A program made the position numbers and the translations under genes. Below are positions 949 through 20,062 of a DNA stretch of 20,469 bases, piece after piece. Origin of the DNA: JAUWCW01 sp030609125 [NCBI: Candidatus Rokuibacteriota bacterium]. GTDB taxonomy: Bacteria > JAUVQV01. Positions within the stretch are counted from its first letter, which is position 1. Each line of letters opens with the position of its first letter. The notes below the pieces were generated by a model, which worked only from the letters and a program-made list of their open reading frames with translations, searched no databases and was not told where the DNA came from. The stretch lies in the NCBI GenBank assembly GCA_030609125.1, contig JAUWCW010000010.1, positions 1-20,469 on the forward strand, written 5' to 3'.

Positions 949-1227
949 ATGAAAGACGCTGAAATCATACGAGTCCGTCTGCATGAGACCGCGATCGGTT
1001 TTGACGCGGCGAGAAGGAAGGCCGACGAAAAAGCGGGAGAGAAGCTGAAGGAGCCGCTGCTCGTCGCCTGGTATGACGGGGTCAAGGGGATCGGGCATCC
1101 TGACGTTCACGAGTGCACGGACAAGCCCGGGTGGATGACCTACGCCGAAAGCCGCGGGGGAAGCACTACGGTGAACGTGAACGACGGGAGGTACATCCTG
1201 ATCTATGCGGAGGGGTCGCTGGAATGA
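949..1227 (+). CDS. Small protein resembling the AF1514 family
   Basis: This 92-residue cytoplasmic protein has conserved-looking stretches in order: an N-terminal strand, an FDAARRKADEKA helix, PLLVAWYDG, then ECxxKPGWxxYAESRGGxxxVxVNxGxYxxIY. That arrangement matches my memory of small AF1514-type proteins of archaea and Deltaproteobacteria, whose function is unknown; the family name is recalled, not searched. ATG 949 is chosen because the family-like sequence starts there; a frame open from 889 would add 20 residues of low-complexity character. Its stop overlaps the ATG of the membrane cytochrome downstream by four bases (ATGA at 1224-1227), which implies translational coupling and a shared role. 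Confidence 0.6.
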   Translation: MKDAEIIRVRLHETAIGFDAARRKADEKAGEKLKEPLLVAWYDGVKGIGHPDVHECTDKPGWMTYAESRGGSTTVNVNDGRYILIYAEGSLE

Positions 1228-2156
1228 CCGGAGTCCGTGCGGGCCTGGTACGAGCCGCGCTGCCGGCGCTCATCCTGCTTTTCGCCAACGCCTCTCCGGC
1301 CTTCGCTACGCCGGAGTTCTCGGAGCGGACGGCCCAGTCGTGCGGCACCTGCCACCTGGACAGGGACGGCGGGGAGCTGTCCCGCAAGGGGCTGGAGTTT
1401 GCCGCCTCGGGGTACGTGTGGCCGCCGAGCGGGGGCTACCGGCTGCTGGGGCCTGTCAGGAAGAGAATTCGCTTCTTCATCGGCCTTTTTCACATCGTTG
1501 CGGCCTTCATCTGGTTCGGGACCATCCTCTACGTCCACCTCATGCTCAGGCCCGCCTACGCCATGAAGGGTCTGCCGAAGGGGGAGGTGGCACTCGGCCT
1601 CGTCTCAATGGCCGTCGTCGGGATATCCGGCGTCCTGCTGACGATTTCGCGGATACGAAGCCTGGACGTTCTCGTTCGGAGTCCCTGGGGAATCATCCTC
1701 TCCGTAAAGATCGCCCTGTACCTGGTGATGATCTCGTCGGCGGCCTTTGTCATCATGGTCGTCGGGCCCCGGTTGAAGAAGGGCAGAACGGCAGGGCCCC
1801 TGCCGGCGGACGGGCTCTTCGGGCCGGAGGAACTCTCGGCTTTCGACGGGAAGGAGGGCAGACCCGCGCTCATCGCCTTCAACGAGACGGTGTATGACGT
1901 CTCGGCATTGAAGATGTGGGCGGGCGGGATGCACATGAAGCACCTTGCGGGGACGGACCTGACGGACGCAATAAAGAGAGCGCCCCACGGCGAGGAGAAA
2001 CTCGAGGTGGCCAAGGCGGCGGGAACTTTCAACCTGGAGACGAAGCCGTCCCTCACGCCGTACCAGAAAGCGTTCTATGTCGTGGCGTACATGAACCTTA
2101 CCATCGTCTTCATCGTACTCGGCACGATAGCGTTCTGGAGGTGGGGGTTCTACTAG
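1224..2156 (+). CDS. Membrane cytochrome: CxxCH motif, CopD-like helices and cytochrome b5 domain
   Basis: This 310-residue protein combines three parts. Residues 1-28 are a signal sequence ending in AFA. Residues 40-44 are CGTCH, a c-type heme attachment site that would lie in the periplasm. Next come several membrane helices beginning FIGLFHIVAAFIWFGT, with a histidine inside the first helix as in CopD-like and b-type cytochromes. Residues about 200-268 are a cytochrome b5-like domain (VYDVS, WxGGMHxxHLAGxDLT, APHGEEKL), and a final helix occupies about 284-306. The likely role is electron transfer between periplasmic and membrane partners, possibly the quinone pool; no partner is shown. 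ATG 1224 is chosen because the signal peptide starts there; a longer open frame from 1113 lies inside the preceding gene. The gene converges on menA, with only 10 bases between the stops. Confidence 0.7.
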   Translation: MTGVRAGLVRAALPALILLFANASPAFATPEFSERTAQSCGTCHLDRDGGELSRKGLEFAASGYVWPPSGGYRLLGPVRKRIRFFIGLFHIVAAFIWFGTILYVHLMLRPAYAMKGLPKGEVALGLVSMAVVGISGVLLTISRIRSLDVLVRSPWGIILSVKIALYLVMISSAAFVIMVVGPRLKKGRTAGPLPADGLFGPEELSAFDGKEGRPALIAFNETVYDVSALKMWAGGMHMKHLAGTDLTDAIKRAPHGEEKLEVAKAAGTFNLETKPSLTPYQKAFYVVAYMNLTIVFIVLGTIAFWRWGFY

Positions 2157-2166
2157 GCTGAACGGG

Positions 2167-3081
2167 CTAGAGAACGATCCCTATGGCGAAGAAGAGGCAG
2201 AAGACGAGGGTGTAGCGCGCCGTGCCCGCCAGGGCCCGGTTCATCGCCGGCCCGTCCCGGTACTCTTTCTCCAGCGTCCGCAGAAGGGGGACCGTCATCG
2301 GCAGGGTGAAAAAGGGGAGAGTGATCCAGCCGTCCGCCGACCCCGAGAGCCACAGCGCCAGCAGGATCAGGTATGCCCCCGCGATGAGGGCGACGTACTC
2401 CGCCAGGGTCCCCCGCGGCCCGAGTCGGACCGCCAGCGTCCGCTTGTCCACCTTCGAGTCGGTTTCGATGTCGCGCAGGTTGTTCACCACCAGGATCGCC
2501 GTGATGAGCAGTCCCGGAGGGACCGCCGCCGCCAGGGCAAAAGGTGTCAGGGCGAGGGCCTGGACGTAGTAGGTGCCGCAGACCGCGGCGAGCCCGAAGA
2601 AGAGAAAGACGAAGATGTCTCCCAGGCCGTGGGAGGCGATCGGCCAGGGGCCGCCGCTGTAGGCGAGGGCCGCCAGGATCGACGCCGTTCCGACGGCGAG
2701 TATCGGCCACCCCCCGACGGCGATGAGGTAGATGCCGACCAGGGCGGCGAGAAGAAAAACGAGTGCCATCCCCAGCCTGATATCTTCCGGGGAGATCAGT
2801 CCCGCCTGTGTGACCCTCAGGGGGCCCTTGCGCCCGGCGGTGTCGACGCCTTTTTTGAAATCGAAGTAGTCGTTGGCGAGATTGACTCCAACCTGAAGAA
2901 GGAGAGCCCCAGCCAGGGCGGCCAGGGCGGGAAGAGGAGCGAATGAGCCGTCGCGGACTGCCACGGCGGTCCCCACCGCCACCGGGGCCACCGCGGCGGG
3001 AAGGGTCTTGGGCCTGGCGGCCAGCATCCACGCCTGCCGCCGGGAGACGCCGGCGGTGTCCTGCACGGGGCTACGGCTCAA
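2167..3081 (-). CDS. menA: 1,4-dihydroxy-2-naphthoate polyprenyltransferase (MenA)
   Basis: MenA attaches the isoprenoid tail to dihydroxynaphthoate in the membrane, giving demethylmenaquinone. The 304-residue protein has RPKTLPAA at 23-30, the first aspartate motif NDYFDFKKGVD at 70-80 (UbiA superfamily) and the second, NLRDIETDSKVDKRT, at 201-215 with D204, D208 and D212. The rest is hydrophobic helices. The match to MenA is good along its length (RPKTLP, NLANDY, GPLR, GLGDI, NNLRDI), better than to the futalosine-pathway enzyme MqnP as far as I can judge. The start is TTG at 3081, with GGGGAG seven bases upstream; it lies inside the end of ubiE (11-base overlap). An internal ATG at 3027 would leave out residues 1-18. 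It is the last gene of the five-gene operon. Confidence 0.9.
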   Translation of the reverse strand: MSRSPVQDTAGVSRRQAWMLAARPKTLPAAVAPVAVGTAVAVRDGSFAPLPALAALAGALLLQVGVNLANDYFDFKKGVDTAGRKGPLRVTQAGLISPEDIRLGMALVFLLAALVGIYLIAVGGWPILAVGTASILAALAYSGGPWPIASHGLGDIFVFLFFGLAAVCGTYYVQALALTPFALAAAVPPGLLITAILVVNNLRDIETDSKVDKRTLAVRLGPRGTLAEYVALIAGAYLILLALWLSGSADGWITLPFFTLPMTVPLLRTLEKEYRDGPAMNRALAGTARYTLVFCLFFAIGIVL

Positions 3082-3778
3082 CGGGGCGCTCCCCGACGTG
3101 CACCGCCATGGTGTTGAACATGAAGAGGTGGCAGCGGACCGCTGTCAGCCCGGACTCCCGCATGATCCGCGCCAGTTCCTCGGGAGACTTGAACCCCTCC
3201 GTCGACGCCGTCAGGTAGACGTAGGCCTCGCGATCGCCCGCCACCAGGCGTCCGAGGAGGGGGATGATGTGCCGGAGATAAAAAAGTATGAAAGGCCGCA
3301 GCAGCGACGGCGGCGGCGGGGTGGTGTCGAGACAGACCACTCTTCCTCCCGGCTTCACCACCCGGAGCTGCTCCCGGAAGGCGGCCTCCGCGTCGGGGAC
3401 ATTGCGGATCAGGTACCCGGAAGTGACGGCGTCGAAGCTCGCGTCGGGAAAGGGGAGGGCGAGGGCGTCGGCGGCGCACCAGTCGATCTTCCCGCCGCCG
3501 GGACGCGCCCTCCCGACGCGCATCATCTCCGTGGCAAAGTCTGCCCCTACCGCCCGCAGCTCCTCGATTTTCCGCATCGCTTCGAGGGCGATGTCGCCGG
3601 TGCCGCTGGCCACGTCAAGGAGGCGCTCCCCCCGGGCGAGGGCCGTCTCCCGCACCACCGCTTGCCGCCACGCGCCGTCCCGGCCGAAGGTCATGAGCCG
3701 GTTCATGAGCTGGTAGCGCCGGGCGATGCGGTCGAACATGGCCCGTACGTCGACGCCCTGTGCTTCCTTCTCCGCCAC
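3071..3778 (-). CDS. ubiE: Demethylmenaquinone C-methyltransferase (UbiE/MenG)
   Basis: This 235-residue enzyme methylates demethylmenaquinone with S-adenosylmethionine, the final step of menaquinone synthesis and the step after MenA. The UbiE signature YxxMNxxMTFGxxxxWR is at 22-38, the SAM motif LLDVASGTGD at 53-62, and the second signature RNVPDxxxxxxExxRVVKPGG follows in the middle of the protein. The C-terminus is the usual FNTMAVHVG type. The start is GTG at 3778, with GAGGGAAGG about eight bases upstream. Only five bases separate it from the stop of the permease gene, and menA overlaps its end, so all three are probably translated from one mRNA. Because menaquinone is made here, menG would be the better biochemical name. 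Confidence 0.92.
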   Translation of the reverse strand: MAEKEAQGVDVRAMFDRIARRYQLMNRLMTFGRDGAWRQAVVRETALARGERLLDVASGTGDIALEAMRKIEELRAVGADFATEMMRVGRARPGGGKIDWCAADALALPFPDASFDAVTSGYLIRNVPDAEAAFREQLRVVKPGGRVVCLDTTPPPPSLLRPFILFYLRHIIPLLGRLVAGDREAYVYLTASTEGFKSPEELARIMRESGLTAVRCHLFMFNTMAVHVGERPVEP

Positions 3779-3783
3779 GGTGT

Positions 3784-4542
3784 CTACCTTCCCTCGAGGT
3801 GCAGGTGAGGGTTTGTTCTTCTTTCCAGCCAGTCCAGCCCCGCGTAGAGGATCAGGCCCAGCAGGCTCATGGCCAGGATCCCCGCGTACATCTCCCGGTA
3901 GCGCAGGACCTGATAGGTCTCGACGACGATGTAGTAGCCGAGGCCGTAGCGGGTCAGGGACTGCTCGGCGATAAAGAGCACGGCGATGGCCGTGCCGGTC
4001 GTCACCCGCAGGGCCGTCAGGGTAGCCGGCAGGGAGGCCGGGATGTAGACGTAGCGAAAGAGCGCCTTGCGTCCGGCGCCGAGGGAGCGCACCGAGAGGA
4101 TCAGCTCCGGCCGCAGCTGGGCAGCCTCATCGCGGACCACGACGAGGATCTGGAAGAAGAGAATGATGGCGATGAGAAAGATCTTCGAGAAATTGGTGAT
4201 CCCCATGAGGACATAGATGACCGGGAGGAGCACGATCTTCGGGATCGGGTAGACGATGGCGATGAGGGGGGCGAAGATCCGGTCCAGGCGCTTCATCTGT
4301 CCCAGGGCAAGCCCGGCGGGTGCCGCCGTCGCCGCCGCCAGGGTGATGGCGGCCAGCACCCTGGCGGCGCTGGCGAGGGTGTGCAGCCCGAGCTCTCCCG
4401 GCATGAGGCGGAAGAAGATCGGCAGCACCTCCCCGGGAGAGGGGAGGATCGGCCGGTTGATGACCCAGGCGAACAGCTGCCAGAGGACGAAGAACATGAC
4501 AATGCCGACGGCGCTGTCGCCGAGCCTAGAGCGTTGCTTCAT
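3784..4542 (-). CDS. ABC transporter permease, SsuC/TauC type
   Basis: This 252-residue inner-membrane protein has about six hydrophobic helices and the cytoplasmic EAA-type loop SLGAGRKALFRYVYIPASLP that docks to the ATPase. The N-terminal ILPSPGEVLP is typical of BPD_transp_1 permeases of the nitrate/sulfonate/taurine class. The ATG at 4542 lies inside the ATPase gene (17-base overlap). The substrate cannot be read from this subunit. Its position directly before ubiE and menA is unusual for sulfonate or nitrate systems and hints at a substrate linked to quinone or aromatic metabolism (inference). Confidence 0.85.
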   Translation of the reverse strand: MKQRSRLGDSAVGIVMFFVLWQLFAWVINRPILPSPGEVLPIFFRLMPGELGLHTLASAARVLAAITLAAATAAPAGLALGQMKRLDRIFAPLIAIVYPIPKIVLLPVIYVLMGITNFSKIFLIAIILFFQILVVVRDEAAQLRPELILSVRSLGAGRKALFRYVYIPASLPATLTALRVTTGTAIAVLFIAEQSLTRYGLGYYIVVETYQVLRYREMYAGILAMSLLGLILYAGLDWLERRTNPHLHLEGR

Positions 4543-5329
4543 GGACTTCTCCGATAGCGGACCGCACCTGCTCGACCCTGGTCTGGTAAGCCTCGCTCCC
4601 GCGGTAGCCGGCTGCTCCGGCGCCGGGGTTGTCCAGAATACGAGGTGTGCGGTTGGGCGGGTGGCCGAGGACGAGAATCTTCTCGCCCAGAAAGGCCGCC
4701 TCCTCGATGTTGTGGGTGACGACGACGGTGGTCAGATCGCCTCCGCTCCCGGCCTCGCGTCGCAGCTCGTGGCTGAGCTCCTGCAGATCTTCCCGGGTCG
4801 GTGCGTCGAGGGCGGAGAAGGGCTCGTCCATGAGCAGCAGGTCCGGCTTGAGGGCCAGGGTGCGGGCAATGGCCGTTCTCTGGCGCTGCCCGCCGGAGAG
4901 CTGTGAGGGGTAGCTGGAGGCAAGATGGGCGATGCCGAGGCGCTCGAGCCAGTATTCAACCCGCCTCTTTGCCTCCTCCCGGTCGATTGTCTCGCCGGCG
5001 GGGGCGTGGAGGCCGTCGGGGCCGTAGAACTGCCGTATCGTGAGGCCCAGTATGGCGTTCTTCCAGACCGGCGCCCAGGGGAGAAGACCGTGGTCCTGCA
5101 GGATGAGGCCCGTCCCCGGCCGGGGTCTCTCCACGGCGCTGCCGGCGATGCGGACGCTGCCGGAGGCGGGGCGCAGCAGACCCGCCAGCAGGTAGAGGAG
5201 GGTCGTCTTTCCGCAGCCCGAGGCGCCGATGACCGCCCAGGACTCGCCGGCTCCCACGCGCCAGCTGAAGCTCTCGAAGATCGGCTGCTTCCGGCCGAAG
5301 GTGAACGTCAGATTCCGGACGTCAATCAT
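4526..5329 (-). CDS. ABC transporter ATP-binding protein, SsuB/TauB type
   Basis: This 267-residue cytoplasmic ATPase drives the importer. All catalytic motifs are intact: Walker A GASGCGKT (35-42), Q-loop Q78, signature LSGGQ (144-148), Walker B LLLMDEP (164-170), D-loop SALD and H-loop H206. An insertion of about 15 residues after the Q-loop region (FYGPDGLHAPAGETID) is longer than in many relatives. The C-terminal tail GYRGSEAYQTRVEQVRSAI extends past the core. The ATG at 5329 overlaps the stop of the binding-protein gene in an ATGA. Substrate specificity is set by the neighbouring binding protein. Confidence 0.9.
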   Translation of the reverse strand: MIDVRNLTFTFGRKQPIFESFSWRVGAGESWAVIGASGCGKTTLLYLLAGLLRPASGSVRIAGSAVERPRPGTGLILQDHGLLPWAPVWKNAILGLTIRQFYGPDGLHAPAGETIDREEAKRRVEYWLERLGIAHLASSYPSQLSGGQRQRTAIARTLALKPDLLLMDEPFSALDAPTREDLQELSHELRREAGSGGDLTTVVVTHNIEEAAFLGEKILVLGHPPNRTPRILDNPGAGAAGYRGSEAYQTRVEQVRSAIGEVHEATL

Positions 5330-6321
5330 TTAGATTGGGCGAGAAACTCCCCGGTGACGGAGGTGTCGTACGGCGACTCGCCGTCGATCAGGCCCTTGCC
5401 GGAGAGCCACGCCACGACGTCCCCCCACTGGTTCCGTGAGGGGATCTCGCCGATGGGGAAGGGGGGAATGGAAAATGTCTCCTGGACGTTCTTCGGCACC
5501 CGCACCTTCTGAAGGAGGAGCGCACGGTAGGCCGTCGGGTCGGCGTTGATCTCCTCCGCGGCGCGGTTCCAGACCGCCAGGAAGCGCCGCACCCCCTCGG
5601 GGTTCTCGCGGAGGGTGGCGTCCCTGAAGGCGAGGATGGTGACGGCGTAGATCGGGTGCGAGGCGTCGTCCACCACCAGGGTCGCCCCGGAGGTGATGGC
5701 GCTCTGGGCGAGGGGGTCGGGGAGGGTGGCGGCCCGGATCTTTCCTTCCATCAGCAGCTGGTAGCGCTCGGGGATGGCCGGGACCGACTGGCTGACGATC
5801 TCGTCCGGGCTCAGCCCCTCCGCCTGCAGGAGACGGTCGGTGATGTACTCGATGATGGTGTTCTCCGAGATGGCCACCGGCACGCCGGCCAGGTCGGCCG
5901 GGGTGGTGATCCCGCTTCCCGGCGCAGCGATCACGCGGAAGATGGGAGATCCCGCATAGGCCTTCCGGGCGGTCATCACGACACGGATGCGGGTTTCCTC
6001 GCGGTTGAAGATAGCTGCCGCCGCGAGCTCGCCGAGCATGCCGTCCACCTGGCCGGCCTGCAGGAGCTGGTCGCGCTCGAGGGCGCTCGAGACCGGGATG
6101 GCGGTTACGTCCAGACCCTCCTCGGTGAAGTACCCCTTCTCCTCGGCCAGGTAGAAGGGGAGGACGTCGGTGATGGGAAGAAGGGCGAGTTTCAGGGGGG
6201 CCGGAGGTGCGGATGCCGGCGTCCCGGCTGACGGTTTCTCTTTACCCCCGCCGCAGGAAAAGAGGGTGAAGGCGAAGAGGGCTGTCATGAACAGAACGGT
6301 ATATACACGGGATCTTGTCAT
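5326..6321 (-). CDS. ABC transporter substrate-binding lipoprotein (NMT1/SsuA-like)
   Basis: This 331-residue protein is exported and lipid-anchored: signal sequence 1-22 with lipobox LFSC and the acylated Cys at 23. The mature part is a type II periplasmic binding fold: PITDVLPFYLAEEKGYFTEEGL at the start, then LLQAGQVDGML, the hinge-type DLAGVPVAISENT, and LLMEGKIRAATLPDPLA. These are hallmarks of the NMT1/THI5-like and nitrate/sulfonate/taurine binding proteins, which bind small organic ligands such as sulfonates, pyrimidine precursors and aromatics. The ligand is not predictable here. The ATG at 6321 has TGGAGG about 12 bases upstream. It is the first gene of the operon that continues through ATPase, permease, ubiE and menA. 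Confidence 0.85.
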   Translation of the reverse strand: MTRSRVYTVLFMTALFAFTLFSCGGGKEKPSAGTPASAPPAPLKLALLPITDVLPFYLAEEKGYFTEEGLDVTAIPVSSALERDQLLQAGQVDGMLGELAAAAIFNREETRIRVVMTARKAYAGSPIFRVIAAPGSGITTPADLAGVPVAISENTIIEYITDRLLQAEGLSPDEIVSQSVPAIPERYQLLMEGKIRAATLPDPLAQSAITSGATLVVDDASHPIYAVTILAFRDATLRENPEGVRRFLAVWNRAAEEINADPTAYRALLLQKVRVPKNVQETFSIPPFPIGEIPSRNQWGDVVAWLSGKGLIDGESPYDTSVTGEFLAQSK

Positions 6322-6359
6322 CGATTGTCAGTGCCTCCAGAGTGGTTTTGAATGTTCGG

Positions 6360-6365
6360 ATAATA
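6360..6365 (-). promoter_or_regulatory. Possible -10 box for the ABC-ubiE-menA operon
   Basis: Read on the minus strand this is TATTAT (5 of 6 to TATAAT), 38 bases before the ATG of the binding-protein gene, in a locally AT-rich patch. No good -35 box is present at 16-18 bases, so an activator may be needed or the call may be wrong. Confidence 0.3.
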
Positions 6366-6537
6366 CAACAGAAACAGCCCAAAAGCACGCTGGAACAAAA
6401 CGCTTTCCACGACGCAGCGACCGCTCTTGCCGGGGGAGGGACGAGCAGTATGGCGTGCTGCCGGAGACAGGGCAGCCGAGCCGCGGTCCCCGCCGGTGGC
6501 GAAGCGCCTGATGAGAGGCTTCAGCTCCGGCATCGAT

Positions 6538-7641
6538 TCAGCGCGCTCGGTTGAGGGGGGCGAGGGAGGGGAGGGTGAACCGGCCCTTGGCGAAGACAGT
6601 CTTCCCGTCGATGACGACCCGGCCCGCGCGTCCCAGCCGGGTGACGATGTCCCAGTGGATTGCCGAGCGATTGCCGTTGAAGCAGCGGCGGTAAGCGTTG
6701 CCGAGGGCGAGGTGGATGGAGCCGAACATTTTCTCGTCGAAGAGGGTGCTCCCCACGGGCTCCCTGATCCTCCGGTTGGTGCCGAAGGAGAACTCGCCCA
6801 CGTACCTCGCGCCGGGGTCGATGTCAAGGATGCGGTTCAGCGCCCTTTCTCCCGACCGGCACGTTGCCTTTACCGCCTTGCCTCGCGAGAACTCGAGAAC
6901 GATGCTCTCGAAGGTTCGCCCGTCATAGGTCGTCGGGCAGTTGAAGGTGATGATCCCTTCCACCGAGCGCCTCACCGGCGCCGAGAAGACCTCCCCGTCG
7001 GGAAGGTTCCTCTGTCCGTCGGCCTTGACCCCGGGGAGCCCTTTGAGACTGAAGGAGAAGTCCGTTCCGGGAGCCTCGACATGGACCCTGTCGGCCCGCT
7101 CCAGGAGACGTCGCAGCGGCTCCTGCTTTCTCGACTCCCGCGCCCAGTCGAGATTACAGGCGCGGAAGGTGAAGTCCTCGTACTCCTCGAGGGACATCCC
7201 CGCGCTCTGGGCGGCGCCGTGGGTGGGATAGCGGCAGACGACCCAGCGGGTGTGATTTACGCGCCGGTCGAGGAGGGGGCGGAGGGTCTTCTCGTGAAGC
7301 AGCTGCAGCTCCTGGTCGGAGCCGGCGTAGACCTTCGAGTTCTGCACCGCCCCGATGCCGATGGAGACGTCGACCTTCTTCAGAAAGTCGAGCTTGTGGC
7401 GGGGAAAACGGGAGAGCTGCTCCCGCGTCCCGAAGCGGTAGAGATCCTTCGTGATCTCCGGGAAGCTGAAGGAGATCTCCACGTGGGCCGCCCGGCGGAG
7501 GAGGCAGAGGCGGTGCACCTCCTTGACGAGGGGCACGCACTCCTCCCCGACGGCGCTGATGAGGACTACGTCCCCCTTATTCACCGCCGTGGAGTAGTTG
7601 ACGATGATGCCTGCGAGCTTCCTGATTCTCGGGTCGTTCAC
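6538..7641 (-). CDS. Family M29 metallo-aminopeptidase (AmpS/PepS type)
   Basis: This 367-residue cytoplasmic enzyme should remove N-terminal residues from peptides with a pair of divalent metal ions. The metal ligands of the M29 family can be placed: E217 in LPDGEVF, E283 in GEFSFGTN, H310 in GSIHLALG, Y317, and H329 and D331 in SAIHWD. The spacing from E217 to E283 equals that remembered for S. aureus AmpS. The N-terminal half (DPRIRKLAxIIVxYSxxVxKGDVVLI) is also typical. It is somewhat shorter than the roughly 400-residue usual length. The start is GTG at 7641 with AAGGAGG 11 bases upstream; the gene begins seven bases after the acyltransferase stop, so the two form an operon. About 216 bases without a gene follow before the ABC operon. 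Confidence 0.87.
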   Translation of the reverse strand: MNDPRIRKLAGIIVNYSTAVNKGDVVLISAVGEECVPLVKEVHRLCLLRRAAHVEISFSFPEITKDLYRFGTREQLSRFPRHKLDFLKKVDVSIGIGAVQNSKVYAGSDQELQLLHEKTLRPLLDRRVNHTRWVVCRYPTHGAAQSAGMSLEEYEDFTFRACNLDWARESRKQEPLRRLLERADRVHVEAPGTDFSFSLKGLPGVKADGQRNLPDGEVFSAPVRRSVEGIITFNCPTTYDGRTFESIVLEFSRGKAVKATCRSGERALNRILDIDPGARYVGEFSFGTNRRIREPVGSTLFDEKMFGSIHLALGNAYRRCFNGNRSAIHWDIVTRLGRAGRVVIDGKTVFAKGRFTLPSLAPLNRAR

Positions 7642-18509: not shown

Positions 18510-18972
18510 TATCCGCCGTCCATCCCCGGGGGGCTTCACCCTGCTCGAGATGCTTCTGGTGCTGTTGCTGATCTCACTGGCCGGCGCTCTTGTCTACCCG
18601 AACCTCCAGCCCCACCTTCAGAGAACCCGTAGCGAGGCGGCGCTGCGTAAGATAACCGCCACACTCGACGACCTCCGGCGCCGCGCGGTGGCGGGCGGAA
18701 AAGTCCTGGTTCTCACTTTCGAAGAGGAAGGAGGGGATTTGCTCCTGCGCGAGGAGGGCTCCGGGGAGGAGCCGGAGGCGCTGCCCGTGCCGGAGGGATT
18801 GGAGATCGTCTCCATGAGCCCGGCGCTGCTCAGGTACTTCCCCCAGGGGCACTCCAGTGGAGCCGTTCTGAAGACCGGCGAAAGACGCGGCGTCTCATAC
18901 CGGATAGAAGTCGGCTCGTTCACCGGCCTCGCCCGGGTATCCGGAGACGAGGAACGCCAGCGTGGGCGCTAA
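18502..18972 (+). CDS. gspH: Minor pseudopilin GspH-like protein
   Basis: This 156-residue prepilin-like protein has the cleavage site PGG/FTLLEM (after G11; E16 at +5) and a hydrophobic helix LLVLLLISLAGALV. The following region SEAALRKITATLDDLRRRAVAGGKVLVLTF matches the GspH/FimT pattern of a helix then a first strand; the rest is strand-forming and acidic. The start is taken as GTG 18502, inside the end of gspG (8-base overlap), because the signal sequence begins just after it; no ATG is suitably placed. Its stop overlaps the next gene by 11 bases. GspH caps the pseudopilus with GspI, J and K, but none of those genes is adjacent here. Confidence 0.78.
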   Translation: MTDIRRPSPGGFTLLEMLLVLLLISLAGALVYPNLQPHLQRTRSEAALRKITATLDDLRRRAVAGGKVLVLTFEEEGGDLLLREEGSGEEPEALPVPEGLEIVSMSPALLRYFPQGHSSGAVLKTGERRGVSYRIEVGSFTGLARVSGDEERQRGR

Positions 18973-20062
18973 GGTTCTAATCCGGGAGGCCGCCTACCCG
19001 GTGGAAGACGCCGTCGTCGGAGATCTTCTCGACGAGTTTGCCCCTTCCCTCGACGGGCGCACGGTGCTGGTCAAACCGAACTGTCTCATGGCCGCGGAGC
19101 CGGAGCAGGCGGTGACCACCCACCCCAGCCTGGTTCGCTCTCTCGTCGCTTCCCTGCGCCGCCGCGGCGCGAAAGTCATGGTGGGAGACAATCCCGGCGC
19201 GAGGGGCTACGGCGCCGGCGAGCACTGTTTCCGCGCCACCGGCCTGCTCGATGCCGCCGGAGACGCATTCGTCGACCTCGGCCGCAACACCGTCAGGGTG
19301 GGCATTCGCTCGGAGTTCGTCGACGAGGTCGTGGTGTCGCGGCACGTGCTGGATGCCGATTTCGTTATATCTGTCCCGAAACTCAAGACCCACTGTCTGA
19401 CCCTTCTCACCGGGGCCGTGAAGAACATGTACGGCATTCTCGCCGGCGGAGAAAAGGTGAAGCTCCACTCCCTCGCCCGGGGAAGAAAGGACTTCGCGGC
19501 GGCCCTCGTGGACGTTTACTCCCTGCGCCCTCCCGATCTTGCGCTGACGGACGCGGTGGTGGCCATGGAGGGGAACGGGCCCTCCCACGGGAGCCCGAGG
19601 GCGGTCGGCAGGATTCTGGCCTCCGACGATCCCGTGGCGGCGGACGCGGCGGCGGCGCGAATCATGGGTGTCGAGCCCGGGAGGATAGACCATCTGGCCA
19701 TCGCCGCCGCGAGGGGTCTGGGGAGCCTGGAGAAGATTGTCTTCGACGGCAACGTCTCCCCCGTGGACGGCTTCAGTCTTCCCTCCATGTTCCGGCTCGG
19801 ACTCATGACCTTTCTCTCCAATCGGCTGGTCTTCAACCTTCTCCGCAGGTCCCGCATACAGGTGGAAAAGGGCGAGTGCGTCGGCTGTGATGAATGCCGG
19901 CAAGCGTGTCCGGCGGGAGCGATGGTCGAAAGTGGGGGCCATTACACGGTTCGGCAGGAGCTGTGCCACCAGTGCTTCTGCTGCTATGAGCTCTGCCCGG
20001 AAGGGGCGATCAAGGTGCGGGGGGCCCTTGGGGCGCTCCTTGAAAAAAGGGAGAAGGTGTGA
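18962..20062 (+). CDS. DUF362 protein with two [4Fe-4S] ferredoxin motifs
   Basis: This 366-residue protein has an N-terminal DUF362 domain (about 1-265) with family-like stretches VLVKPNCL (35-42), THPSLVRSLVxxLRRRGAKVMVGDNPG (53-79), DADFVISVPKLKTHCL (131-146) and GAVKNMYG (151-158). A ferredoxin-like end carries two CxxCxxCxxxCP sets: C306, C309, C312, C316 and C335, C338, C341, C345, so two [4Fe-4S] clusters are expected. The family is widespread in anaerobes and its reaction is unknown; a redox role in the cytoplasm is the usual inference. The start is GTG 18962, overlapping gspH by 11 bases. yjbQ begins 13 bases later. No signal peptide is present, although it is coupled to secretion genes. 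Confidence 0.88.
   Translation: MGAKVLIREAAYPVEDAVVGDLLDEFAPSLDGRTVLVKPNCLMAAEPEQAVTTHPSLVRSLVASLRRRGAKVMVGDNPGARGYGAGEHCFRATGLLDAAGDAFVDLGRNTVRVGIRSEFVDEVVVSRHVLDADFVISVPKLKTHCLTLLTGAVKNMYGILAGGEKVKLHSLARGRKDFAAALVDVYSLRPPDLALTDAVVAMEGNGPSHGSPRAVGRILASDDPVAADAAAARIMGVEPGRIDHLAIAAARGLGSLEKIVFDGNVSPVDGFSLPSMFRLGLMTFLSNRLVFNLLRRSRIQVEKGECVGCDECRQACPAGAMVESGGHYTVRQELCHQCFCCYELCPEGAIKVRGALGALLEKREKV

Follow-up and report, generated by a model that had tools for sequence, protein, structure and literature searches.

A candidate ABC importer of menaquinone precursors encoded beside late menaquinone genes in diverse bacteria

Introduction

Microbes that carry only menA and menG could use 1,4-dihydroxy-2-naphthoate (DHNA) made by others, as Ravcheev and Thiele argued in 2016; their study also states that the genes for menaquinone-precursor transport “remain to be annotated”, with transporters to be predicted and then validated (PMC4746308). 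Lactiplantibacillus plantarum uses quinones made by its neighbors, through uptake pathways described as still awaiting identification (PMC10746273). Some genomes have neither menaquinone pathway according to a 2026 survey of bacterial quinones, whose main text does not contain the words uptake, scavenge or auxotroph (PMC13386864). No named DHNA or naphthoate transporter was found in the open-licence literature, and nothing decisive emerged from publications about Desulfobacula, about Halanaerobium or about sulfate reducers with incomplete pathways. Here, we describe a candidate for such a transporter, an ATP-binding cassette (ABC) importer consisting of a substrate-binding lipoprotein (SBP), an ATPase and a permease, which is encoded in a five-gene run with the menaquinone genes ubiE/menG and menA. 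The run lies in a stretch of 20,469 nucleotides, hereafter the window, of contig JAUWCW010000010.1 (assembly GCA_030609125.1), from a Candidatus Rokuibacteriota bacterium, hereafter the host.

From comparison of sequences and gene neighborhoods, we propose that this system would import a menaquinone head-group precursor, with DHNA as the favored cargo of the copies linked to MenA, such as that of the window; we put the probability of this reading at roughly 0.6. The specific substrate is a prediction, albeit a strong one.

Results and Discussion

Association of the importer with late quinone genes

The five-gene run is real and beyond chance: its gene order is found again in other genomes. A previous sequence-only reading of the window had described these frames as an importer operon with ubiE/menG and menA, and this description holds, with the Pfam and NCBIfam families in agreement for the five minus-strand frames (Table 1). 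The SBP and ATPase genes overlap by 4 bases and the ATPase and permease genes by 17, the permease and ubiE are 5 bases apart, and, with a TTG as the start codon of MenA, ubiE and menA overlap by 11 bases (starting at the in-frame ATG that lies 54 bases further on would instead leave a 43-base gap). MenA scores above the cut-offs of two curated NCBIfam MenA models; UbiE falls just below that of its closest equivalog model (212.1 versus 216).

In a spread sample of 241 genomes, the SBP was matched at E 1e-15 in four, the host included. In one of these, G109 (SBP identity 36-37%), the SBP is followed directly by a MenA-like gene. At E 1e-25, the SBP is found in 8 of the 12 genomes examined from the phylum of G109; the eighth carrier (G251) has SBP, ATPase and permease, with no MenA found nearby. 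An alignment of eight SBPs was then scanned against the GTDB genome collection, and the best 80 of 104 relatives make up the named loci analyzed below. A scan of viral contigs yielded no relative of the SBP.

Whether this clade sits beside menA or ubiE elsewhere, a question raised by the sequence-only reading, can be answered in the affirmative: a late quinone gene lies within 4 kb of the SBP in 47 of the 80 loci, namely MenA and/or UbiE in 25, UbiA, UbiX or UbiD on the same strand in 22, and both sets in none. As an internal control for chance, we considered loci flanked on each side by 7.5 kb or more; of these 42, 26 are linked within 4 kb and only 4 have such a gene in the ring from 4 to 8 kb. 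The clade is seen in Desulfobacterota, Chloroflexota, Bacillota, Spirochaetota, Actinomycetota and Archaea. The order of the window recurs in L040, L094 and L053 (here with 1.5 kb between permease and UbiE); in the last, from an Anaerolineae metagenome-assembled genome (MAG), all five proteins are 59-76% identical to those of the window. Moorella thermoacetica (L063) has the order UbiX-UbiD-UbiA-SBP-ATPase-permease, with the SBP frame abutting UbiA, and Halanaerobium kushneri (L096) has UbiD-UbiA-UbiX-SBP-permease in a row. The link between the importer and quinone synthesis appears to be widespread across phyla and is well supported, as is the suggestion of the sequence-only reading that the substrate would be tied to quinone synthesis, which draws on this linkage and on the carriers without early genes described below.

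The MenA/UbiE set and the UbiA/UbiX/UbiD set (the prenyltransferase and decarboxylase of the futalosine route) both prenylate and decarboxylate a dihydroxynaphthoate. Besides that of the window, nine MenA partners were checked, with a partial tenth: those of L033, L040, L046, L050, L053 and L057 score above both NF004751 and TIGR00751, and that of L094 above TIGR00751 only (113.3 versus 102.15). The partial one (L041 10510-11373; CP070694.1, a single-contig MAG) matches the models over residues 7-139 only, and this MenA copy may be broken, frameshifted or misassembled. All four UbiD partners checked (L063, L096, L085 and L111) belong to TIGR03701, the menaquinone biosynthesis decarboxylase, above its cut-off, at 645-677 bits (677 for H. 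kushneri, versus 495.9).

These assignments bear on the idea that the cargo is 4-hydroxybenzoate, a breakdown product or some other aromatic acid with a hydroxyl group, which the adjacent prenyltransferase and decarboxylase would use for a different quinone or for catabolism. Relatives of UbiA, UbiX and UbiD serve 4-hydroxybenzoate too, and the UbiA of Moorella scores equally on the 4-hydroxybenzoate (343) and MqnP (342) models, below both cut-offs. The UbiD partners, however, are of the menaquinone type in every case checked, and the main-clade MenA copies checked, apart from the partial one in L041, are above the DHNA models; MenA is not known to act on 4-hydroxybenzoate. We regard a cargo of this kind as distinctly improbable.

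In a tree of 85 SBPs, built by a quick method (the placement of long rows is uncertain, and related rows do not count as independent), the MenA label changes 7 times, compared to a mean of 24.5 when labels are shuffled, and the UbiD label 5 times, compared to 19.6; in neither case did any of 500 shuffles give a value as low. Accordingly, the MenA and UbiD partner sets each occur on several branches. The importer appears to track the chemistry, that is, prenylation and decarboxylation of a dihydroxynaphthoate, rather than one gene set. At the margin of a clade made up mainly of Desulfobacterota, the host SBP groups with a protein from Anaerolineae (57% identity; support 94, not starred).

Table 1. 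The five-gene run of the window
Feature	Coordinates	Strand	Evidence
Substrate-binding lipoprotein (SBP; NMT1/SsuA-like; proposed dihydroxynaphthoate binder)	5326..6321	-	PF09084 9e-24, PF13379 5e-15; lipobox-like LFSC
ABC transporter ATPase	4526..5329	-	PF00005 (ABC_tran) 2.9e-31
ABC transporter permease	3784..4542	-	PF00528 (BPD_transp_1) 1.3e-16
UbiE/MenG methyltransferase, last menaquinone step	3071..3778	-	Ubie_methyltran; TIGR01934 224.6 bits versus cut-off 158.35
MenA, 1,4-dihydroxy-2-naphthoate prenyltransferase	2167..3081	-	UbiA family; NF004751 333.6 versus 264; TIGR00751 221.8 versus 102.15

Downstream, the run is bordered by a convergent gene (1113-2156, plus strand), the product of which is a CopD-like membrane protein (barely above the Pfam cut-off) that carries a heme domain of the cytochrome b5 type close to its C terminus. 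At the far side of the window, a DUF362 protein carrying a 4Fe-4S domain at its C-terminal end (18962-20062, plus strand) is encoded directly 3' of frames that, by eye, resemble type II secretion or pilus genes. In the window, all Rfam families stay below their gathering scores, and a scan of positions 6250-6600 for a sigma-70 promoter and a terminator gave no match.

Several relatives have neighborhoods of their own. In the G109 phylum, the loci with an SBP and a MenA-like gene are L014 (7079-9961), L027 (8238-10883), L028, L029, L025 and L030; a TetR regulator lies ahead in L014, L027 is alike by eye, and the SBP frame of L030 (G241) looks broken. In Thermincola-type loci (L058 10540-11696, checked by domain, and L070 10521-11678, by eye), the importer is followed at its 3' side by genes for a YkuD (L,D-transpeptidase) protein and a small FmdE protein, with no quinone genes; the cargo of these importers may differ from that of the quinone-linked copies.

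Early-pathway genes in importer genomes

We searched 58 importer genomes whole: the host, 8 of the G109 phylum, and 49 that came from 50 of the 80 loci. MenD is above its cut-off in none of the 58; among all 63 genomes searched, it was found only in G001, where there is no importer match. MenB is above its cut-off in none of the 35 genomes examined, and MenB-like proteins that fall below it in G256 and G291 (262 and 285 bits versus 342.7) may act as MenB. On the futalosine side, a match to PF02621 (MqnA/MqnD) is present in 25 of the 57 genomes searched, and MqnC is above its cut-off in 21 of 63. Each of four Moorella genomes (G276, G288, G289 and G294) has one PF02621 protein, flanked by two MqnC/MqnE-type genes, and no MqnD was found in them. 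ANME-1 genomes have been reported to contain futalosine genes (PMC9012536).

Early genes were scored as present given an MqnC-model match of more than 280 bits or a strong PF02621 match; G241 and G249 were covered by the MqnC search only, outside the PF02621 search. By this measure, taken in carriers only, early futalosine genes are present in 26 of the 58 importer genomes, and none were found in 32. The latter account for 19 of the 26 genomes with a MenA/UbiE-linked locus, 9 of 16 with a UbiA/UbiX/UbiD-linked locus, 4 of 12 with an unlinked locus and 0 of 4 with a truncated one. Three of the 32 bear isolate strain names (H. kushneri, Halanaerobium saccharolyticum and Maledivibacter halophilus), and NrfD-type quinone-reactive proteins are above the cut-off in 22 of the 31 genomes of this group that were tested.

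The distribution of the decarboxylase MqnL points to the cargo. MenA alone prenylates and decarboxylates DHNA, so that MqnL is expected to be absent if DHNA is imported, whereas 1,4-dihydroxy-6-naphthoate would need it; MqnL above its cut-off is absent from 17 of the 19 MenA/UbiE-linked genomes without early genes, which favors DHNA there. The two exceptions (G268 and G269, Chloroflexota with near-identical SBPs) have UbiE only by the importer, with no MenA seen. The contrast in MqnL between linkage classes (Fisher p 1.2e-4) is partly circular, given that the UbiD-linked class is defined by a neighbor from the UbiD set, and its informative half is the MenA side alone. The sequence-only reading had suggested an aromatic or futalosine-type precursor; the quinone-precursor idea stands, and a futalosine-type cargo is less likely than DHNA for the copy of the window because its partner is MenA and MqnL is mostly absent from the linked genomes. 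Independently of linkage, 14 of the 16 importer genomes with unlinked or truncated loci hold early genes or MqnL, suggesting that the importer accompanies menaquinone synthesis also in genomes where the genes are not neighbors.

The same genomes give rise to the strongest rival explanation, a third, unknown route to the naphthoate ring, with a transporter that moves an intermediate of this route or recaptures the cell's own leaked precursor. Large genomes, among them G256 (the genome of L041, a single-contig chromosome of 5.3 Mb), have no MenD above the cut-off and no MqnA or MqnC and yet encode a MenA-type protein and NrfD proteins. The below-cut-off MenB-like proteins of G256 and G291 fit such a route as well, as do the genomes with neither pathway in the 2026 survey (PMC13386864). 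Conversely, in the loci read by eye, no candidate gene for it was recognized as recurring beside the operon, and there is no clear reason for a synthesis route to need an SBP-dependent importer. On balance, we consider this explanation unlikely.

Quinone genes of the host

The host is represented by a 2.3 Mb draft genome that is 92% complete. Its contig C152 (L005 3008-7277) encodes MqnA, the sole PF02621 match of the genome, for which the nearest solved chains are chorismate dehydratases (3e-58, versus 2e-7 for MqnD), and MqnC (473.8 bits versus a cut-off of 428.1). After mqnC comes a PF01048 phosphorylase; the contig also encodes an amidohydrolase distantly like aminofutalosine deaminase, and a short piece at the contig edge matches the end of the MqnE model. 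No MqnD was seen in the genome; the phosphorylase recalls mqnZ, a PF01048 protein proposed in place of mqnD by Ravcheev and Thiele (PMC4746308). A second contig, C290, encodes MqnL, the menaquinone-type UbiD (TIGR03701, 640.6 bits versus a cut-off of 495.9), beside a fragment of an MqnP-like prenyltransferase that shares 45-47% identity with its Halanaerobium and Moorella counterparts and has no significant match to MenA of the window.

Judging from these genes, the host has most of the futalosine route, leading to 1,4-dihydroxy-6-naphthoate. The sequence-only reading had raised the question of whether the host is devoid of early men or mqn genes, which is borne out for MenD and MenB, neither of which was found above its cut-off in the host genome, and not for the futalosine genes, given MqnA, MqnC, MqnL and the MqnP-like fragment. 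We rejected, on the same grounds, the notion that the host needs the importer for want of a route of its own. The MenA of the host needs the 2-carboxylate, DHNA, for which synthesis genes were not found, and this mismatch would be explained if DHNA comes from outside. In the host, the importer would then serve salvage beside the cell's own synthesis, as a second source of the ring. The possibility that the SBP stands in for the missing MqnD was set aside because the SBP carries a lipoprotein signal and has a permease and an ATPase of its own. Two genomes of the host's phylum were compared, and in the second there is no SBP match, which leaves the search of this phylum uninformative.

Transporter names and structure of the binding protein

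The sequence-only reading had noted the usual sulfonate- or nitrate-type names for importers of this type, and the curated cut-offs lend them no support. The SBP scores 69.3 on the SsuA family model TIGR01728 (cut-off 163.5) and 18.7 on the taurine model TIGR01729 (304.25); the best scores of the ATPase and the permease are on the models for the taurine ATPase (160 versus 357) and the SaoP permease (83 versus 295). For nitrate (NrtABC), the ATPase reaches 151 versus 291.8 on TIGR01184 and the permease 50.1 versus 209.05 on TIGR01183. With all three proteins below the curated cut-offs, the names sulfonate, taurine and nitrate reflect no more than distant likeness.

An AlphaFold2 model of the SBP (mean pLDDT 94.3) adopts the type II periplasmic binding fold, with Thi5, TauA, SsuA, nitrate and bicarbonate binders, and PqqT as the best solved folds; the top match by Z in PDB is SsuA 2x26 (Z 28.2, rmsd, root-mean-square deviation, 2.5 over 279 aligned residues), and 6ssy has Z 26.7. 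Among 66 aligned SBPs, E158 and R186 are invariant, and E82, D84, S152, N154, T155, Y159 and D219 are kept in 57-64. The arginine is compatible with an acidic ligand; the fold alone names no ligand.

An ordinary sulfonate, taurine or nitrate importer, co-transcribed with quinone genes by accident, would agree with the SsuA/TauA-like family names and with the presence of SsuA and TauA among the closest solved folds. Against this stand the scores of all three proteins, far below the cut-offs, and the recurrence of the quinone linkage in several phyla; no sulfonate or nitrate genes were recognized by eye beside the importer in the loci read. Such an importer seems very unlikely. Thi5/ThiY-type proteins among the closest folds could likewise suggest a carrier of thiamine, riboflavin or another vitamin precursor. 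A riboswitch for thiamine pyrophosphate (TPP) is frequent, although not universal, upstream of ThiXYZ operons; before the operon of the window, however, no TPP riboswitch is matched in Rfam at the gathering score, the loci of eight relatives yield no riboswitch at this score (the Rfam matches there are one 6S RNA and two tRNAs), and no thi or rib genes were recognized by eye beside the importer. A vitamin-precursor importer is, in our estimation, the least probable of these alternatives, with hardly any claim to be correct. The sulfonate, taurine, nitrate and thiamine cargoes were all rated low, given the unreached cut-offs, the menaquinone partners and the failure to find riboswitches.

Proposed function

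Under the favored reading, which is also the most economical, the lipoprotein would catch soluble dihydroxynaphthoate released by neighbors, most likely DHNA in the case of the window, and the permease and ATPase would move it into the cytoplasm. MenA would then exchange the carboxyl group for a polyprenyl tail, and UbiE would methylate the product to yield menaquinone. On other branches, where the importer lies beside MqnP/MqnM/MqnL-type genes (UbiA/UbiX/UbiD), the expected cargo would probably be 1,4-dihydroxy-6-naphthoate. About half of the carriers examined would have no known source of the ring other than the importer. The broader scenario, in which a single importer clade teamed several times, in bacteria, with either late-enzyme set, and about half of the carriers are obligate consumers of the naphthoate of their neighbors, has in our view an even chance of being correct.

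A number of observations weigh against import of a menaquinone precursor as the function of this clade. No late quinone gene lies within 4 kb of the SBP in 33 of the 80 loci, some of them on short contigs and many not, and the unlinked loci include all ten from Archaeoglobales, those of ANME-1/Methanophagales and Thermincola, and also Aquicultor. In the G109 phylum, where the SBP lies beside a MenA-like gene, no ATPase or permease could be found within the retrieved sequence, and the MenA-like partners of L014 and L027 are below both MenA cut-offs (86.8 and 100.3 versus 102.15 on the laxer model), their best matches being MenA models nonetheless. In the loci of H. kushneri and H. saccharolyticum, no ATPase was found beside the permease. 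Maledivibacter (G300) has a PF02621 match of 42 bits, above the family cut-off of 26, which we set aside as weak in counting this genome among those without early genes, and its UbiA/UbiX/UbiD genes are 4-7 kb away on the other strand. In 9 of the 31 genomes tested, among them those of Maledivibacter and the two Halanaerobium isolates, no NrfD protein is above the cut-off, so that quinone-based respiration is only putative there. Early futalosine genes are present in 26 carriers, one of which is the host, and a need for the importer is accordingly not general; most carriers are MAGs, and the fold family binds many ligands, among them sulfonates, nitrate, bicarbonate and pyrimidines. Finally, such sulfate reducers, like many Desulfobacterales, can be cultured in defined media that contain no naphthoates, and this would suggest an unknown synthesis route.

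If the proposed function is correct, the window provides a concrete candidate for the predicted menaquinone-precursor importer, one that comes with a genetic context and a ligand open to testing and that is carried by members of cultured genera. Menaquinone synthesis would then be a shared service in anaerobic communities, and genomes seemingly without a menaquinone route would be explained, including those reported in the 2026 survey (PMC13386864). The reading of respiratory capacity from MAGs would change as well.

Comparison with known systems

DHNA cross-feeding of the L. plantarum type resembles the proposed system in that one or more late genes occur without the early ones and DHNA or quinones come from neighbors; unlike the present case, with its candidate importer, no uptake system is named in the available parts of this literature (PMC10746273 and PMC4746308). 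With SsuABC, TauABC and the NMT1 group (PF09084/PF13379), the importer of the window has the fold and the three-part anatomy in common, whereas SsuA 2x26 is only 15% identical to the SBP, the partners in the window are menaquinone genes, and the curated cut-offs are not reached. MqnD (2czl, Z 20.6) and MqnA (6o9a, Z 17.0) share the two-lobed fold with the SBP model, as the sequence-only reading had anticipated; they differ in being enzymes without a transporter, at 14% and 11% identity, respectively, and the host has a separate, true MqnA. PqqT (PDB 9b1u, 9b1v and 9ooz) has the same fold at Z 25-26 (25.7 for 9ooz) and 17% identity, and its cargo is a finished cofactor, not a cytoplasmic precursor. 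The ligand of PqqT, according to the PDB entry titles, is pyrroloquinoline quinone (PQQ), a water-soluble aromatic redox quinone cofactor, which provides a precedent for a quinone ligand in the SBP fold.

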